Below are positions 3,982 to 21,270 of a stretch of 40,679 nt of DNA, in pieces; within the stretch, counting starts at the first letter, position 1, and each line of letters begins with the position of its first letter. Source of the stretch: a virus; IMG/VR virus record IMGVR_UViG_3300012930_000018, positions 1-40,679 of that record. One strand, 5' to 3'. A program made the position numbers and the translations under genes. The notes beneath the pieces were generated by a model, which was not told the DNA's origin, did not search any database, and saw only the letters and a program-made list of their open reading frames with translations.

Positions 3982-4009
3982 TTGACACTGGTCTTAGTTG
4001 GAGTATCCT
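3982..4009 (+). promoter_or_regulatory. Sigma70-type promoter for the 4043 operon
   Basis: TTGACA (3982-3987), a 16-base spacer and TATCCT (4004-4009). The resulting short leader ends in TCAACCCTACCGGGAGA and the start at 4043. The perfect -35 box makes this one of the best promoters in the window. Confidence 0.6.
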
Positions 4010-4042
4010 GGAGTCTGCATCTCAACCCTACCGGGAGAACAC

Positions 4043-4723
4043 ATGCAGACCTATACACACGAAGCCTATATTCACGCGGTCCGGGAAATAGCGGCCGCAC
4101 GCATTCCAGAATCGGAACGCGCGCCACTATTCGAAATCAAGCTTGTCTACGGATCAGGCAGACTCGGCACACGCGGGACCACGTACTTTGGATGCTGGAA
4201 AAACGGTCACCCGACTGACGCGCACCCGTTCGTGGAAGTCTGCGCATTCGGGGAAGAGTCTCCTGTCCAAGTCGCAGGCACCACGATTCATGAGCTTGCC
4301 CATGTTCTCGCGGGTCCATCTGCCGGACATGGTGCCGACTGGCATGCTGCTTGCGCGCGCCTTGGACTGTGCAAGGTGCAAGCCGCTGGTACGAATTACG
4401 TCCCGGAATGCTTTGACGCTGACGTGTGGCAGGCCATCCAGGCTTTGCCTGTTCCTGCCGATGGTCGGCCGACTGGATCAAGCAACCTATCAGGCGCGCC
4501 TGTAGGCTTGCCCTTGCAATTGAAACTCCGTCCTTGCGGCGCTGGTATTGGCACACGCGGAGGAAAGTCTCACGGTATCGGCTCAGGTTCACGCTTGCGC
4601 AAATTCGCTTGCGATTGCGGCGTCATCGCACGGGTAGCACGCGACGATTTCCGCGCGGTCTGTACCCTGTGCAATTCGGCCTTTCATCCTTCAGCCGCGC
4701 AATCGCGCAAGGCGGCATCATGA
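4043..4723 (+). CDS. SprT-like zinc metallopeptidase, 226 aa
   Basis: The HELAH motif at aa 83-87 with a nearby GHGADWH gives the zinc-binding HExxH site of SprT-family peptidases. The C-terminal part carries CDCG and CTLC pairs, matching the family's zinc ribbon. Cellular relatives (Spartan/SprTN) degrade DNA-protein crosslinks; in phage the substrate is unknown. The start at 4043 follows CTACCGGGAG six bases upstream, and the longer frame upstream of it has no ribosome site. It is first in a three-gene operon with ATGA overlaps. The family call is strong, the role inferred. Confidence 0.85.
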   Translation: MQTYTHEAYIHAVREIAAARIPESERAPLFEIKLVYGSGRLGTRGTTYFGCWKNGHPTDAHPFVEVCAFGEESPVQVAGTTIHELAHVLAGPSAGHGADWHAACARLGLCKVQAAGTNYVPECFDADVWQAIQALPVPADGRPTGSSNLSGAPVGLPLQLKLRPCGAGIGTRGGKSHGIGSGSRLRKFACDCGVIARVARDDFRAVCTLCNSAFHPSAAQSRKAAS

Positions 4724-5133
4724 GACACAATCGCGAGGACTACGCAAAACTGCGCCCATGCGAGGAAATCGAGCAGCACGAGTGGGCAAAGCTTGAACGG
4801 GCAAGGCGTACTATAGACCCGCGCAAACTCGCAGCGCTCACGCCTGGATGGTTAAAAGCGCATCTGCGCGCAGGGTTACCGCCAGCACGCGCAGTCTTTG
4901 ACATGCGCACTTACGTTCCCTTCGCGGGAACGCGACAAGCGGCCGATACGCGCAAGGCATCAGACTTCCCGCAATGGGACGAGGATTCTATGACCATTGC
5001 GGAGTATGTCAGGCAATGCGAAGCGGTTTGGACGTTGACGCACGTTCCCAATTACTGCGATGGTCGCCCGGAATATCGGGACCATAACGGCATACGCGAA
5101 ATGCCCGAAGTAGGCGACATGGTGACCGCATGA
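4720..5133 (+). CDS. Hypothetical phage protein, 137 aa
   Basis: Begins MRHNREDYAKLRPCEEIEQH; the start overlaps the protease stop (ATGA). The first half is charged and helical, the second contains MTIAEYVRQCEAVW and ends in GDMVTA. Two cysteines in the second half (RQCEA, NYCDG) do not form a clear zinc motif. Cotranscribed with the SprT-like gene and the next small gene. No family recognised. Confidence 0.7.
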   Translation: MRHNREDYAKLRPCEEIEQHEWAKLERARRTIDPRKLAALTPGWLKAHLRAGLPPARAVFDMRTYVPFAGTRQAADTRKASDFPQWDEDSMTIAEYVRQCEAVWTLTHVPNYCDGRPEYRDHNGIREMPEVGDMVTA

Positions 5134-5297
5134 ATACGCCCATGCCGCTAGATGACGCAAAGCTTTCCGCGTGGCTCTATCAGCAATGGGCGCGCGAACT
5201 GCGCGAGATTGAGGCTCGCAAATACGCCTACCCGCTCGATTACACGCGCGCTGCAATCCTGCGCTCTAGCATGCGCGCAGAACAAGGAGGATGCTAG
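5130..5297 (+). CDS. Small protein, 55 aa
   Basis: A short gene starting MNTPMPLDDAKLSAWLYQQW and ending in RAEQGGC, coupled to the upstream gene by an ATGA overlap at 5130-5133. It is helical with several Arg/Glu pairs, suggesting a coiled or partner-binding helix. Last gene of the 4043-5297 operon; the first compound leader follows directly. Function unknown. Confidence 0.65.
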   Translation: MNTPMPLDDAKLSAWLYQQWARELREIEARKYAYPLDYTRAAILRSSMRAEQGGC

Positions 5298-5308
5298 ATC
5301 GCAACCCT

Positions 5309-5365
5309 AAGCGCATCGGGATCGGTGCGCTTTCAGGTGCAATCTCGCACCATAACCTACCGGAG
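5309..5365 (+). promoter_or_regulatory. Compound leader element 1 (two hairpins plus ribosome site)
   Basis: Stem 1 is AAGCGCA (5309-5315) with TGCGCTT (5326-5332), followed by one more T, so it is terminator-like. Stem 2 is GGTGC (5336-5340), loop AATCTC, GCACC (5347-5351). The ribosome site CTACCGGAG (5357-5365) lies 7 bases before the ATG at 5373. The same order recurs before 5635, 6129 and 6670. Confidence 0.7.
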
Positions 5366-5372
5366 AACATCC

Positions 5373-5555
5373 ATGCATAACGTTGAAATGAAAGTCACCG
5401 GGCAAACGCTCACGCTCACCGTCGATTTGTCCAAACCGGGCAGTATGTCCCGCACGGGCAAAAGCATGGTGGTCGCATCAACGGAAGGGAACGTGACCGT
5501 TCCCGGAAAGCCTGATTTCAAGATCGGGCTCAACCTGTACACGCCACGCGCTTAA
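5373..5555 (+). CDS. Small beta-rich protein, 60 aa
   Basis: Begins MHNVEMKVTGQTLTLTVDLS, with alternating polar and hydrophobic residues typical of a small beta-barrel, and ends in KIGLNLYTPRA. The start at 5373 is fixed by the CTACCGGAG ribosome site of leader element 1; upstream codons would run through the leader hairpin. Phage proteins that start MHNVEMKV and carry LTIxVDL occur in many proteobacterial phages as uncharacterised proteins (recollection, not a search). Confidence 0.75.
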   Translation: MHNVEMKVTGQTLTLTVDLSKPGSMSRTGKSMVVASTEGNVTVPGKPDFKIGLNLYTPRA

Positions 5556-5564
5556 TGCAGCCCG

Positions 5565-5626
5565 AAGCGCGTTTATACGTGTAAGCGCGCTTTAGGGTGC
5601 AATCGGCACCGCAACCCTTACCGGGA
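5565..5626 (+). promoter_or_regulatory. Compound leader element 2
   Basis: Stem 1 AAGCGCG (5565-5571) pairs with CGCGCTT (5586-5592). Stem 2 is GGTGC (5596-5600), loop AATCG, GCACC (5606-5610). The ribosome site CTTACCGGGAG precedes the ATG at 5635. An alternative pairing AGGGT (5594-5598) with ACCCT (5614-5618) could compete with stem 2. Confidence 0.7.
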
Positions 5627-5634
5627 GACTCAAA

Positions 5635-5889
5635 ATGTCAAGGCGCTATTCAGACGCACTCGCAATACAGCAAGGCGCATGCAACCCTTCGGGCATCGCG
5701 CTATCCATCGCTGACGCATGCAAGGAAATCCGGAGCGAACCCGGACACACTGGCACCGATCAGATAACTTCCGATCCGGCCGTCAGGCTCATGGTTCACC
5801 AGCTCGCGCACCTATGCCGTGCGAACGATCACCAGGTTGCGGGAACGGCATACTGCGAGCTTACGCAACTCTGCCGGGAGCGCGCATGA
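5635..5889 (+). CDS. Hypothetical phage protein, 84 aa
   Basis: Starts MSRRYSDALAIQQGACNPSG; helical, with several cysteines and histidines (QGACNPSG, QLAHLCRAND, AYCELTQLC). The pattern of an N-terminal CNPSG and a later VHQLAHLC is shared by many small proteobacterial phage proteins of unknown function. Preceded by leader element 2 and overlapping the next gene by ATGA at 5886-5889. Confidence 0.75.
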   Translation: MSRRYSDALAIQQGACNPSGIALSIADACKEIRSEPGHTGTDQITSDPAVRLMVHQLAHLCRANDHQVAGTAYCELTQLCRERA

Positions 5890-6059
5890 ACGATAAAGAC
5901 CGCGAGGACTGGATCAACAACGATGAGGACCTATATCGCTGGATGAGGGATGAAACGCGGGTGTCCTCATTCCGTGGCGGCATGCGCGAATTCATCCGGC
6001 AGAATCGCATCGCTATCGACGCGCACATCCGGGAGAGGCTGAATCAAAAACCGAGATGA
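5886..6059 (+). CDS. Small charged protein, 57 aa
   Basis: Begins MNDKDREDWINNDEDLYRWM: a very acidic N-terminus followed by a basic helical C-terminus (MREFIRQNRIAIDAHI). Coupled to the upstream gene with a CCGGGAG ribosome site inside that gene's end. The charge split suggests a small binding or regulatory protein; no family recognised. Confidence 0.7.
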   Translation: MNDKDREDWINNDEDLYRWMRDETRVSSFRGGMREFIRQNRIAIDAHIRERLNQKPR

Positions 6060-6066
6060 TACCTAG

Positions 6067-6120
6067 CAGCGCATGCACGCGCGTGCGCTGTAGGGTGCAA
6101 TCTCGCACCTACTACCGGAG
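6067..6120 (+). promoter_or_regulatory. Compound leader element 3
   Basis: Stem 1 CAGCGCA (6067-6073) pairs with TGCGCTG (6084-6090). Stem 2 GGTGC (6094-6098), loop AATCTC, GCACC (6105-6109). Ribosome site CTACCGGAG (6112-6120), 8 bases before the ATG at 6129. Same layout and same loop as element 1. Confidence 0.7.
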
Positions 6121-6128
6121 AAAAAATC

Positions 6129-6596
6129 ATGAGTGCTTTCATCTGCGGGCCGGATCATTTCAAAGCCCTTGCAATCTTCGCAGCAGCGCGCGCGCACGGT
6201 CGGCGCAATGTGGACCCGCGTTATTGCGAGATGTTACCGGGAACCATTTCCGAAACGATGACCACGGAAGAGCTTGCGTCGGCATACGCAAACGTGCTGT
6301 ATCAGGAAAACATCCGGAGCGTGCTTGCGCGCTATCCCGGAGACGCCGAGAACCTACCCGGACCGATTTCGCGCCCGGATCGTATCGAGGTAACCGTGCG
6401 CGATGAGACTTTGCCAGCGTACCGGCTCGCGCCTGTCGCACTGTTGAAGATGTGCGATTGCTTGGAGTATCAATCCTGCGAAACGGAGAACTACCGGCAA
6501 ACGGCGGCGTTCAGTCTCCTGGATCGCATTCGAGGGGCGCTGATCCATGCGTTACCCGGATACGATGACGCACCGTGGGACTATTCAGCGGCATAG
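6129..6596 (+). CDS. Conserved phage protein of unknown function, 155 aa
   Basis: Starts MSAFICGPDHFKALAIFAAA. The central segment TTEELASAYANVLYQENIRS, followed by an LPGP sequence, is a pattern I associate with a widespread uncharacterised family in proteobacterial phages and genomic islands. The C-terminal half contains CDCLEYQSC and a helical end. Monocistronic between leader elements 3 and 4, which fix its start and suggest separate translation control. Confidence 0.75.
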   Translation: MSAFICGPDHFKALAIFAAARAHGRRNVDPRYCEMLPGTISETMTTEELASAYANVLYQENIRSVLARYPGDAENLPGPISRPDRIEVTVRDETLPAYRLAPVALLKMCDCLEYQSCETENYRQTAAFSLLDRIRGALIHALPGYDDAPWDYSAA

Positions 6597-6606
6597 ACTT
6601 CAGCCC

Positions 6607-6661
6607 GGAGCGCGTTTAATCGCGCGCTCCAGGGTGCGGTTTTCGCACCAACTTATCGGAG
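6607..6661 (+). promoter_or_regulatory. Compound leader element 4
   Basis: Stem 1 GGAGCGCG (6607-6614) pairs with CGCGCTCC (6623-6630). Stem 2 GGTGCG (6633-6638), loop GTTTT, CGCACC (6644-6649). Ribosome site CTTATCGGAG precedes the ATG at 6670. Both stems keep pairing although their bases differ from the other copies, which looks like covariation. Confidence 0.7.
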
Positions 6662-6669
6662 AACAAAAC

Positions 6670-7212
6670 ATGCATAAAGACGAAATCGCCCGTTTCAAGC
6701 TGCGCGGATTTCAATTCATCGCATACATTTCGCCCGACGAGGACGCGGATGCGCCTTGGGATTCATCGGATGGTCACGGGCCTGTTACCAAATGGGAGAA
6801 TCGCCCAAAGCGGCCGGGCGAGCTGATCCTCGCATCGGATGGGCGCGTCGATCGCTTTTATGATTTCCAAGCGGCCGTCAAGCTCGCGCGTCGCGATCGC
6901 TGGGACTCACCACCCTACAAAACAGGAAAGCCGGGCGAACGTGCGGCGCGCGCGGCGCGCGCAGACTTCGAATTCTTGCGCGGCTGGTGCAATGACCAAT
7001 GGAGTTATGTGGGCGTGATCGTGGAGCGCGTCACAGAAACGGGCACAGTGCGTGACCGTACAAGCCTATGGGGAATCGAATCCAACGCAACAGACTACCT
7101 GCAAGAAACTGCGCGGGATCTCGCCCAAGAACTTGTCTCAAGCGCGCACACCGCGCAACGTCAGCGCGAAGTCAAACAAGCTTTTATCGGTTGCTCTTGC
7201 CCGGAAGTATGA
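6670..7212 (+). CDS. Conserved phage protein of unknown function, 180 aa
   Basis: Begins MHKDEIARFKLRGFQFIAYI. It contains APWDSSDGHGPVTKWENR, YYDF-like RFYDFQAAVKLARRDRWD, RAWCN-like LRGWCNDQW and LWGIESNATDYLQE. This ordered motif set is familiar from an uncharacterised family found in phages and mobile elements of many bacteria. No enzyme motif is evident. The start at 6670 follows leader element 4 and replaces a longer frame whose first 41 codons run through the preceding gene and leader. Last gene of the rightward cluster, ending at a strong hairpin. Confidence 0.8.
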   Translation: MHKDEIARFKLRGFQFIAYISPDEDADAPWDSSDGHGPVTKWENRPKRPGELILASDGRVDRFYDFQAAVKLARRDRWDSPPYKTGKPGERAARAARADFEFLRGWCNDQWSYVGVIVERVTETGTVRDRTSLWGIESNATDYLQETARDLAQELVSSAHTAQRQREVKQAFIGCSCPEV

Positions 7213-8705: not shown

Positions 8706-8952
8706 GATTCCTCCGCAAAAAATTACGATGATGATGCCATGCGTCCCAATAAACCCGTGTTGTGTCGAGCCACATCAAAAACGACCAGCCCCAAAAAACA
8801 TAGATAACGAAATGAAAAAAAGTCCCGCCAAATAATGAATCTATAGCAGCAATAAAAATAACCACGAGAAATGCAAGGCACAAGAAAAACATTCGCCGGC
8901 AGCGGCGCAGCTCCGCCAACACTATAAGCAGCGGCAGCTCGTCCTCCTTCAT
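8680..8952 (-). CDS. Two-span membrane protein, 90 aa
   Basis: After a short charged N-terminus (MKEDELPLLIVLAELRRCRR) come hydrophobic spans at about aa 21-38 (MFFLCLAFLVVIFIAAI) and 44-62 (FFHFVIYVFWGWSFLMW). The tail is rich in His, Arg and Asn and lies in the cytoplasm. Overlaps both neighbours by a few codons, so it is a genuine operon member. Function unknown. Confidence 0.7.
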   Translation of the reverse strand: MKEDELPLLIVLAELRRCRRMFFLCLAFLVVIFIAAIDSLFGGTFFHFVIYVFWGWSFLMWLDTTRVYWDAWHHHRNFLRRNHERRNGNA

Positions 8953-9554
8953 TTGCGGGGTTTCCCGCGCAGGGTGTTGTTCTCAAACCTACTGAGGAAT
9001 TTCTGAGACGGATGCGACTGGATCAGATCCCGGATTCGCATGGCAATTTCGGCCCCGCGTGTGCCCTCGATTTCGACAATCAACGCAGCCTGCTCCAGGC
9101 GAAGCCGGCGCTGCTGCTTCGTCTTTTCAATCTCAAGCCGCAAGCTCGCGGTAGGATCGTATAGCCTTATCCAGTTCCTCAATTGATTTTCGGAAACATC
9201 AAACTCCTGCGCGACCTCGGCATAACTGCGCTCCCCGATCATCGCGACCGCTCGGTGTTTGGTCTCTTCGGTAAAGCTACGTTTTACGCCGGCTCTCCGC
9301 GCCGGAATCACCGAAAGCGGTATATCGGCGCGAGAACCGCCCATATCGACACCCGGAAAAGGGTCATCGATGGAGGGAATGAGTCGCGCGGGGACCGCCG
9401 ACTTCGGAATATTGAGTCGAGTCATGGTCTGCCGAATTTTCTTGGGCATGAAGTCGCTGGTCGGAACCCCGAATTTTTTTGCGAGGGAGCGGCGCTTCGC
9501 CATATTCGCGTCACGGACGCGCCTTCCAGCCGCACGAATCGCTTCGTTTATCAT
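8949..9554 (-). CDS. Helix-turn-helix protein with transposase-type HTH, 201 aa
   Basis: The segment RSFTEETKHRAVAMIGE, then SYAEVAQEFDVSENQLRNWI (about aa 90-130), is the HTH seen in IS3-type OrfA proteins and in some phage small terminases. A basic N-terminus (RRSLAKKFGVPTSDFM) may add a second DNA contact, and a coiled coil (LRLEIEKTKQQRRLRLEQ) follows the HTH. No catalytic transposase domain is present, so it is a DNA-binding protein, not an insertion sequence. A transcriptional regulator or small-terminase-like role is possible. Confidence 0.75.
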   Translation of the reverse strand: MINEAIRAAGRRVRDANMAKRRSLAKKFGVPTSDFMPKKIRQTMTRLNIPKSAVPARLIPSIDDPFPGVDMGGSRADIPLSVIPARRAGVKRSFTEETKHRAVAMIGERSYAEVAQEFDVSENQLRNWIRLYDPTASLRLEIEKTKQQRRLRLEQAALIVEIEGTRGAEIAMRIRDLIQSHPSQKFLSRFENNTLRGKPRK

Positions 9555-20918: not shown

Positions 20919-21214
20919 CGGTCATTCGCTTCGTCGCGATTGCGGGTCCGTTCGTGGACCCGAACATTCCCGAAAAAGCGTGGCTCGCTTCATTCGAGGA
21001 CACACCCTGCGGACGCGGACGCGCGAGATGGACGGCCGACCCGAAAAAGGCACTTATATTTCCATCTTTTCTCGAAGCATTCGATTTCTGGAGACAACGC
21101 AGCACGACCGTTCCGATCCGTGATGACGGCAAGCCTAACCGGCCGCTCACGGCATACACCGTGGAGTTCGAAAAGACGGAAGGTTGGCAGAGTGGGAATG
21201 CAGCGGGTTGCTAA
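20915..21214 (+). CDS. Small protein, 99 aa, ending inside a tRNA
   Basis: Begins MTVIRFVAIAGPFVDPNIPE with an ATGA overlap to the upstream gene. The last dozen residues (KTEGWQSGNAAGC) are read from the first 37 bases of the tRNA-Ser gene. The gene's C-terminus is thus made from tRNA sequence, as expected if the tRNA was acquired or moved next to the gene. The upstream 85 residues look like normal protein. Function unknown. Confidence 0.65.
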   Translation: MTVIRFVAIAGPFVDPNIPEKAWLASFEDTPCGRGRARWTADPKKALIFPSFLEAFDFWRQRSTTVPIRDDGKPNRPLTAYTVEFEKTEGWQSGNAAGC

Positions 21215-21270
21215 CCCGCCGAGTCGCGGGAAACCGCGATGCACAGGTTCGATCCCTGTACCTTCCGCCA
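21178..21270 (+). tRNA. tRNA-Ser, anticodon GCU
   Basis: A complete class II tRNA: acceptor GGAAGGT (21178-21184) pairs with ACCTTCC (21260-21266). The anticodon stem GCGGG/CCCGC encloses the loop TTGCTAA with anticodon GCT at 21210-21212. A long variable arm CGCGG/CCGCG precedes a T arm ACAGG-TTCGATC-CCTGT. The discriminator G and the CCA (21268-21270) are encoded. It lies beside attP, so it may be phage-borne or captured from the host. Confidence 0.93.

Follow-up and report, generated by a model that had tools for sequence, protein, structure and literature searches.

Conserved phage RNA leaders with two mutually exclusive predicted folds suggest an undescribed switch or processing site at gene starts

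Four leaders at one phage locus

The window analysed here is the whole of IMG/VR virus record IMGVR_UViG_3300012930_000018 (40,679 bases), in which a compound RNA leader of two stems precedes the ribosome-binding sites of four genes. Folding and pattern searches were computed from the sequence. An initial annotation had placed the leaders before the ATG codons at 5373, 5635, 6129 and 6670, and all four are present there on the + strand. A pattern comprising stem 2 and the ribosome site matches the record exactly four times, at these leaders; no match was obtained on the reverse strand of the record or with the pattern read backwards. The folding z-scores of the four leaders lie between −2.4 and −3.0.

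Along the RNA the parts follow one another in the order upstream stop codon, a, box, stem 1, spacer, b, a′, b′, linker, Shine–Dalgarno (SD) sequence and ATG, where a denotes the 5′ extension, the box is a motif of approximately CARC, b is GGTGC, a′ is loop 2 and b′ is GCACC. Two folds are predicted. In state A, stem 1 is kept and b pairs with b′ to give stem 2; state B is a single long hairpin made of a:a′, box:b and stem 1, and it excludes stem 2. The extension and box are listed below as predicted pairings in the copies, and these pairings were tested against shuffled and swapped sequences. The features, with upstream stops and genes taken from the list of open reading frames (ORFs) where stated, are as follows (nt, nucleotides; aa, amino acids).

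5295..5297, + strand: stop codon of the upstream ORF 5130-5297 (ORF list); stem 1 of copy 1 starts 11 nt later
5296..5306, + strand: copy 1, 5′ extension AGAT and box GCAACC (fold), the predicted partners of loop 2 and GGTGC in the state B hairpin
5309-5318/5323-5332, + strand: copy 1, stem 1, AAGCGCATCG/CGGTGCGCTT (sequence pattern and fold)
5336..5351, + strand: copy 1, stem 2, GGTGC-AATCTC-GCACC, as in state A (pattern search)
5362..5375, + strand: copy 1, SD sequence GGAG and ATG (5373) of a 60-aa gene (ORF list)
5556..5562, + strand: copy 2, TGCAGCC, comprising 5′ extension and box, immediately following the stop codon TAA at 5553-5555 (fold)
5564-5576/5581-5593, + strand: copy 2, stem 1 (fold)
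5596..5610, + strand: copy 2, stem 2, GGTGC-AATCG-GCACC (pattern search)
5624..5637, + strand: copy 2, SD sequence and ATG (5635) of an 84-aa gene
6053..6064, + strand: copy 3, 5′ extension GAGAT, overlapping the stop codon TGA at 6057-6059, and box TACCT (fold)
6066-6076/6081-6091, + strand: copy 3, stem 1 (fold)
6094..6109, + strand: copy 3, stem 2, GGTGC-AATCTC-GCACC (pattern search)
6116..6131, + strand: copy 3, SD region and ATG (6129) of a 155-aa gene
6595..6605, + strand: copy 4, 5′ extension and box CAGCC, at and after the stop codon TAG at 6594-6596 (fold)
6607-6615/6622-6630, + strand: copy 4, stem 1, GGAGCGCGT/GCGCGCTCC (fold)
6633..6649, + strand: copy 4, stem 2, GGTGCG/CGCACC (pattern search)
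6658..6672, + strand: copy 4, SD sequence and ATG (6670) of a 180-aa gene, phrog_11104, function unknown

The GAGAT of copy 3 is complementary to the loop bases ATCTC at 6100-6104. The four gene starts with the leader lie between 5130 and 6672. In this gene block the leader is present only at starts that have an intergenic gap; it is missing from the genes at 4720, 5130 and 5886, each of which begins before the preceding gene has ended. No intrinsic terminator-like call (GC hairpin followed by a U-tract) was obtained at the four leaders on the + strand.

The leader recurs in unrelated phages

Scanning of metagenomic viral contigs recovered the same unit, consisting of a stem 1 of free sequence, 1-5 nt, a GGTGC/GCACC stem 2, a ribosome site and an ATG, in about 34 leader lineages. 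A scan with both stems and a 4-base spacer matched 76 contigs, and in about two dozen lineages the match lies directly before an SD sequence and ATG. By contrast, the identical scan with a 3-base spacer returned 28 matches, none of which was genuine, that is, before an SD sequence and ATG. When the carrier records were scanned for structure only, 55 of 98 double hairpins preceded an SD sequence and start codon, versus 2 of 26 in reversed sequence. Three further contigs contain arrays, each on one strand (G020, about 12 copies; G014, about 6-8; G002, about 7), so that with the window included the number per contig ranges from 4 to about 12, every copy standing at the start of a gene. The ribosome site given in the initial annotation is present in the window, but its wording, CTACCGGAG, is peculiar to this phage, and other carriers have other linkers.

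Stem 1 was also recovered where it had not been required. Among 65 starts in the carrier records picked by stem 2 and the SD sequence, 46 have a stem 1 of at least 7 base pairs (bp), whereas shuffled upstream sequence gives 1.5 of 65; the remaining real candidates look like chance. Two scans that left stem 1 free, one with stem 2 plus GTCAACC and the other with the stem-2 sequence plus AAGG, gave genuine matches (L284 and L287 among them) in which stem 1 is present with very different sequences. The Rfam 15 covariance models gave no match to the element at gathering score, and nothing relevant at E values up to 10.

Stem 1 keeps its pairing while its sequence is free

The sequence of stem 1 is free between copies and between phages, and the GGTGC/GCACC core is kept. 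At the two stem-1 pairs that lie outside the search pattern, several Watson–Crick types occur, with 20 double-sided changes compared with 7.9 in shuffles; over the related set, the outer pair appears as A-U, G-C, C-G and U-A. With the register set on Watson–Crick pairs only, the other cells of stem 1 hold 18 G·U and 4 A·C combinations, and a second leader set holds 7 and 0, respectively. Such an excess of G·U over A·C is expected if it is the mRNA strand that folds. In some elements the loop of stem 1 is a UNCG or GNRA tetraloop. Loop 2 is fairly constant within array phages and variable between lineages. The initial proposal that stem bases vary while pairing stays is thus borne out by covariation of stem 1 in related leaders, and its broader claim of a selected RNA structure is supported by this covariation and from recurrence in unrelated phages.

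Two mutually exclusive predicted folds

When ten leaders were folded, GGTGC paired in several of them with the upstream box instead of with GCACC. In the best predicted fold of some window copies, too, GGTGC pairs upstream, and the two-stem fold described initially is therefore only one of two states. The box was not part of any search pattern. Its pairing with the stretch of spacer, GGTGC and loop 2 beats shuffled boxes (0 of 200 as good) and the boxes of other phages (0 of 500), and state B is lower in energy than state A in 47 of 50 leaders. With a longer upstream piece, B is better than A in 41 of 50 (mean A−B, +3.0 kcal/mol), and 20 of 21 phages agree. In this comparison, shuffled upstream sequence gave 13 of 50 and −1.7 kcal/mol, swapped upstream sequence gave 17 of 50 and −1.0 kcal/mol, and none of 100 runs of either control was as good. 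The result was replicated in the 13 leader families found after the hypothesis (+4.0 versus −1.0; 0 of 200 shuffles), 11 of which agree.

The remainder of the long hairpin behaves similarly. Across 34 lineages, the match between the 5′ extension and its own loop 2 was equalled in 0 of 1,000 permutations among lineages. Loop 2 is paired in most lineages, by differing sequences: GAGAT/ATCTC in the window, GGCU/AGCC in G002 and AACAG/CTGTT in L332. The partner needed for state A is likewise kept, with GCAC/GCGC found at 59 of 67 starts that have stem 1 and GTGC; of the eight starts without it, one looks real, and its GCATC still pairs through G·U. Because the box and loop 2 pairing fits and the GCACC partner is nonetheless kept, both folds appear to be under selection. 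The leaders show two exclusive pairings, both conserved, as a bistable switch calls for. A pseudoknot combining a:a′ with b:b′ was rejected: it gives the conserved box no role, and hardly any linker would be left. GCACC was also considered as an RNase P-like signal, but no consistent acceptor-like end was found.

Position relative to stop and start codons

The leader is anchored at both ends. Counting upstream ORFs of 45 codons or more, a stop codon lies 4-16 nt (mode 10) before stem 1 in 57 of 73 elements, compared with 5.8% of random positions; in L314, L316 and L327, shorter ORFs end at that place. The distance from the end of stem 2 to the ATG is 12-36 nt (mean 22, s.d. 5). Comparative computation thus backs the set of parts and the order in which they stand, the two alternative pairings, and anchoring at the stop as well as the start codon.

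A possible role for the upstream ribosome

We propose, with a probability of roughly 0.4, that the leader is an intergenic, cis-acting, phage-specific RNA element with two mutually exclusive folds. Anything that takes away the 5′ strand would switch it, and the likeliest agent is a ribosome at the end of the upstream gene. State B would form first during transcription, because b′ is transcribed last, and would be the default. A terminating ribosome would be expected to cover about 10 nt past the stop codon, roughly the stretch that holds a and the box; b would then be left to pair with b′, giving state A. The switch may thereby relay to the mRNA of each cistron whether the preceding one is being translated, by changing the standby region of that mRNA or its susceptibility to nucleases, and it would serve phages as an all-purpose module at junctions ahead of genes needed in quantity. 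We prefer this reading because it uses all conserved parts. A stronger form, in which a widespread, undescribed RNA switch of tailed and filamentous phages is set by the finishing upstream ribosome and licenses or matures the mRNA of each cistron, is conceivable but doubtful.

Attenuators and leader switches of the trp and erm types also have mutually exclusive hairpins chosen by ribosome position, and they read a leader peptide and either hide a ribosome site or make a terminator. The proposed gating resembles them in that choice. It differs in that the upstream gene itself ends beside the leader and neither state hides the SD sequence.

Several observations weigh against the proposed reading. 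When the sequence folded takes in the complete leader as far as +18, A and B come out nearly equal in ensemble energy, with a mean difference of 0.5 kcal/mol favouring A, and the unconstrained probability of GGTGC/GCACC pairing averages 0.19; the models do not say which state dominates in the cell, and free-energy models set at 37 °C may suit the hosts poorly. Predicted accessibility of the SD sequence and the AUG is equal in A and B, which leaves the predicted effect on expression without an evident route; hiding of the SD sequence is on this ground not supported as a mode of action, and we do not propose it. Distance is the one argument for gating, and compact phage genomes would give the same stop position. 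At least seven elements have no close upstream stop or a distant one (L160 8219, L162 3245, L287 3849). Finally, GGTGC and GCACC were set in advance in most searches; the invariance of the two strands, checked within carrier contigs only, is partly a product of that selection.

Alternative explanations

The same folds could instead mark an RNA processing or stability element, in which state B is the substrate of an RNase III-type nuclease. Cleavage beside stem 1, on the 3′ side, would make stem 1 a terminal 3′ hairpin of the upstream message and release GGTGC to build stem 2, a hairpin that would protect the 5′ end of the downstream message. We judge this rather unlikely but a serious rival, and much fits it: the element sits at gene junctions, stem 1 lies near the stop while stem 2 keeps to the start, internal mismatches recur at regular places in the long hairpin of state B, and UNCG and GNRA tetraloops are among the stem-1 loops. 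It too uses all conserved parts, explains independence from gene and host, and needs only universal host enzymes, consistent with the lack of a shared phage protein and with use by filamentous and tailed phages alike. A hairpin of about 20 bp with internal mismatches, as RNase III would require, is predicted for state B in most elements, with A and B close in energy in the longer context. However, a structural hairpin needs no invariant GGTGC/GCACC, and elements without a nearby upstream gene occur. The RNase III processing sites of T7 early mRNA are similarly irregular hairpins at gene junctions of a polycistronic phage message; to our knowledge none of them has a conserved alternative fold built on an invariant GGTGC/GCACC core. 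Joint repression or activation of a group of genes by a trans-acting protein or RNA that reads the GGTGC/GCACC stem or the CARC/GGTG mismatch motif as an operator would account for one-strand repeats before different genes of one phage (four in the window, arrays in three other contigs), for a free stem 1 beside a kept core, and for a loop 2 that is rather constant within array phages. Yet blastp found no protein family common to all carriers, which would leave a host factor or one diverged beyond recognition, and loop 2 varies among lineages, its constancy within a phage being explained by pairing with the 5′ extension. We regard an operator as quite unlikely, though still a serious rival.

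Antitermination by an RNA acting on RNA polymerase, as for the put RNA of phage HK022, which binds the zinc-binding domain of the RNA polymerase beta′ subunit, is suggested by two adjacent hairpins in blocks of small non-structural genes. The put RNA is about 70 nt long, forms two stem-loops in phage early transcripts and needs no phage protein, and one site lies downstream of each early promoter, two per genome (PMC9378689). The leaders share its size and its two stem-loops. They differ in standing beside start codons at gene junctions, up to about 12 per contig, and in having a conserved alternative fold, and antitermination is accordingly very improbable. Hardly credible at all is that a single leader was recently duplicated and has no function, or that the hairpins arose by chance in GC-rich DNA. 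The copies of any one phage do resemble each other, but stem 1 differs between them with pairing kept, unrelated phages carry the same architecture, and the spacing control (0 genuine) and reversed control (2/26 versus 55/98) argue against it, as do the covariation and the independent set found later.

Relation to known phage elements and meaning

The closest known kind is that of the SAS and ESAS repeats of Cluster K mycobacteriophages, which stand before start codons of non-structural genes and have no known function (Pope et al. 2011, PMC3203893). A linear motif of 13 bp, GGGATAGGAGCCC, that stands 3-7 bp ahead of the start codon makes up SAS, and ESAS is an imperfect 17-bp inverted repeat of conserved sequence within one phage cluster (PMC3203893). 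The leaders are likewise repeats in one orientation at the starts of several unrelated genes; in both, the ribosome site has an inverted repeat shortly before it, and the consensus depends on the phage. However, the SAS sequence is absent from the leaders inspected and their ribosome sites differ between phages; in place of a conserved 17-bp repeat they have a free stem 1, and they add a GGTGC/GCACC stem and a competing long hairpin, in unrelated tailed and filamentous phages. In the literature on phage leader motifs, structured phage RNAs, processing and coupling we found no description of the element; subscription papers were mostly outside the scope, and absence is not proof.

Control of single genes inside long polycistronic phage messages is poorly known beyond a few models. 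The element is common, independent of the gene it precedes and easily found, and it occurs in double-stranded DNA tailed phages and in inoviruses. As a defined RNA of about 60-70 nt it is likely to be a new RNA family, for which point mutants of each state can be predicted, and it may be a portable expression or insulation part. The element itself is well supported, and its action is inferred; together the results suggest an undescribed RNA switch or processing site controlling the gene after it.

Carriers and downstream genes

Three carriers are inovirus-like, and in all three contigs the unit precedes the major coat protein gene.

L174 (prophage), inovirus type: coat protein Phage_Coat_B, single-stranded DNA (ssDNA)-binding protein, Zot
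L299, inovirus type: coat, Zot, replication protein
L302, inovirus type: coat

Elsewhere the leader is followed by genes for DUF932, ArdC-like, beta-clamp-like, AAA ATPase and PEP-CTERM exported proteins and by many unknown ones. The carriers have few proteins in common. With following genes mostly unrelated, the leader and not the gene is the conserved unit, as initially annotated. Homologues of the L174 ssDNA-binding protein, including one 74% identical in the inovirus L275 (3001-3279 and upstream), lack the leader; it is thus not tied to that gene, and it appears to be gained or lost independently of it. The PEP-CTERM proteins, each behind a leader, lie at L250:8942-9634, on the − strand of L258 near 7600 and at L074:1157-1930; these three are phage contigs with primase, helicase or DNA polymerase genes, and L250 and L258 are alike.

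Outside the viral contigs, a narrow pattern (AGCGC stem, GGGTGC) gave 66 matches in bacterial genome contigs, one of them a clear element with SD sequence and ATG (the L174 prophage). A covariance search of 201 Sphingomonadales and 300 Burkholderiales genomes, a weak one in which 20-30 candidates were scored per genome, matched only the seed genome. The element was not found in the GenBank inoviruses Cf1c, SMA9 and Pf3, and 50,697 phage records searched by blastn held no useful match to the window or to carrier contigs. The 12.5-kb contig L023 has at least eight GGTGCGC..GCGCACC inverted repeats, apparently a different repeat family.

Other features of the window

Upstream of the first gene of the block, at 4043, lies a promoter-like sequence.

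3982..4009, + strand: TTGACA-16-TATCCT, a consensus match alone (2 found versus 1.5 expected)

This promoter-proximal gene encodes 226 aa with a zincin-like HELAH motif (phrog_6361) and lacks the leader stems; its ribosome site, CAACCCTACCGGGAGA (4024-4038; region 4021-4043), resembles that of the leaders. A 201-aa protein with the transposase-type helix-turn-helix HTH_Tnp_1 is encoded at 8949-9554 (− strand), and a tRNA gene lies at 21178-21267.
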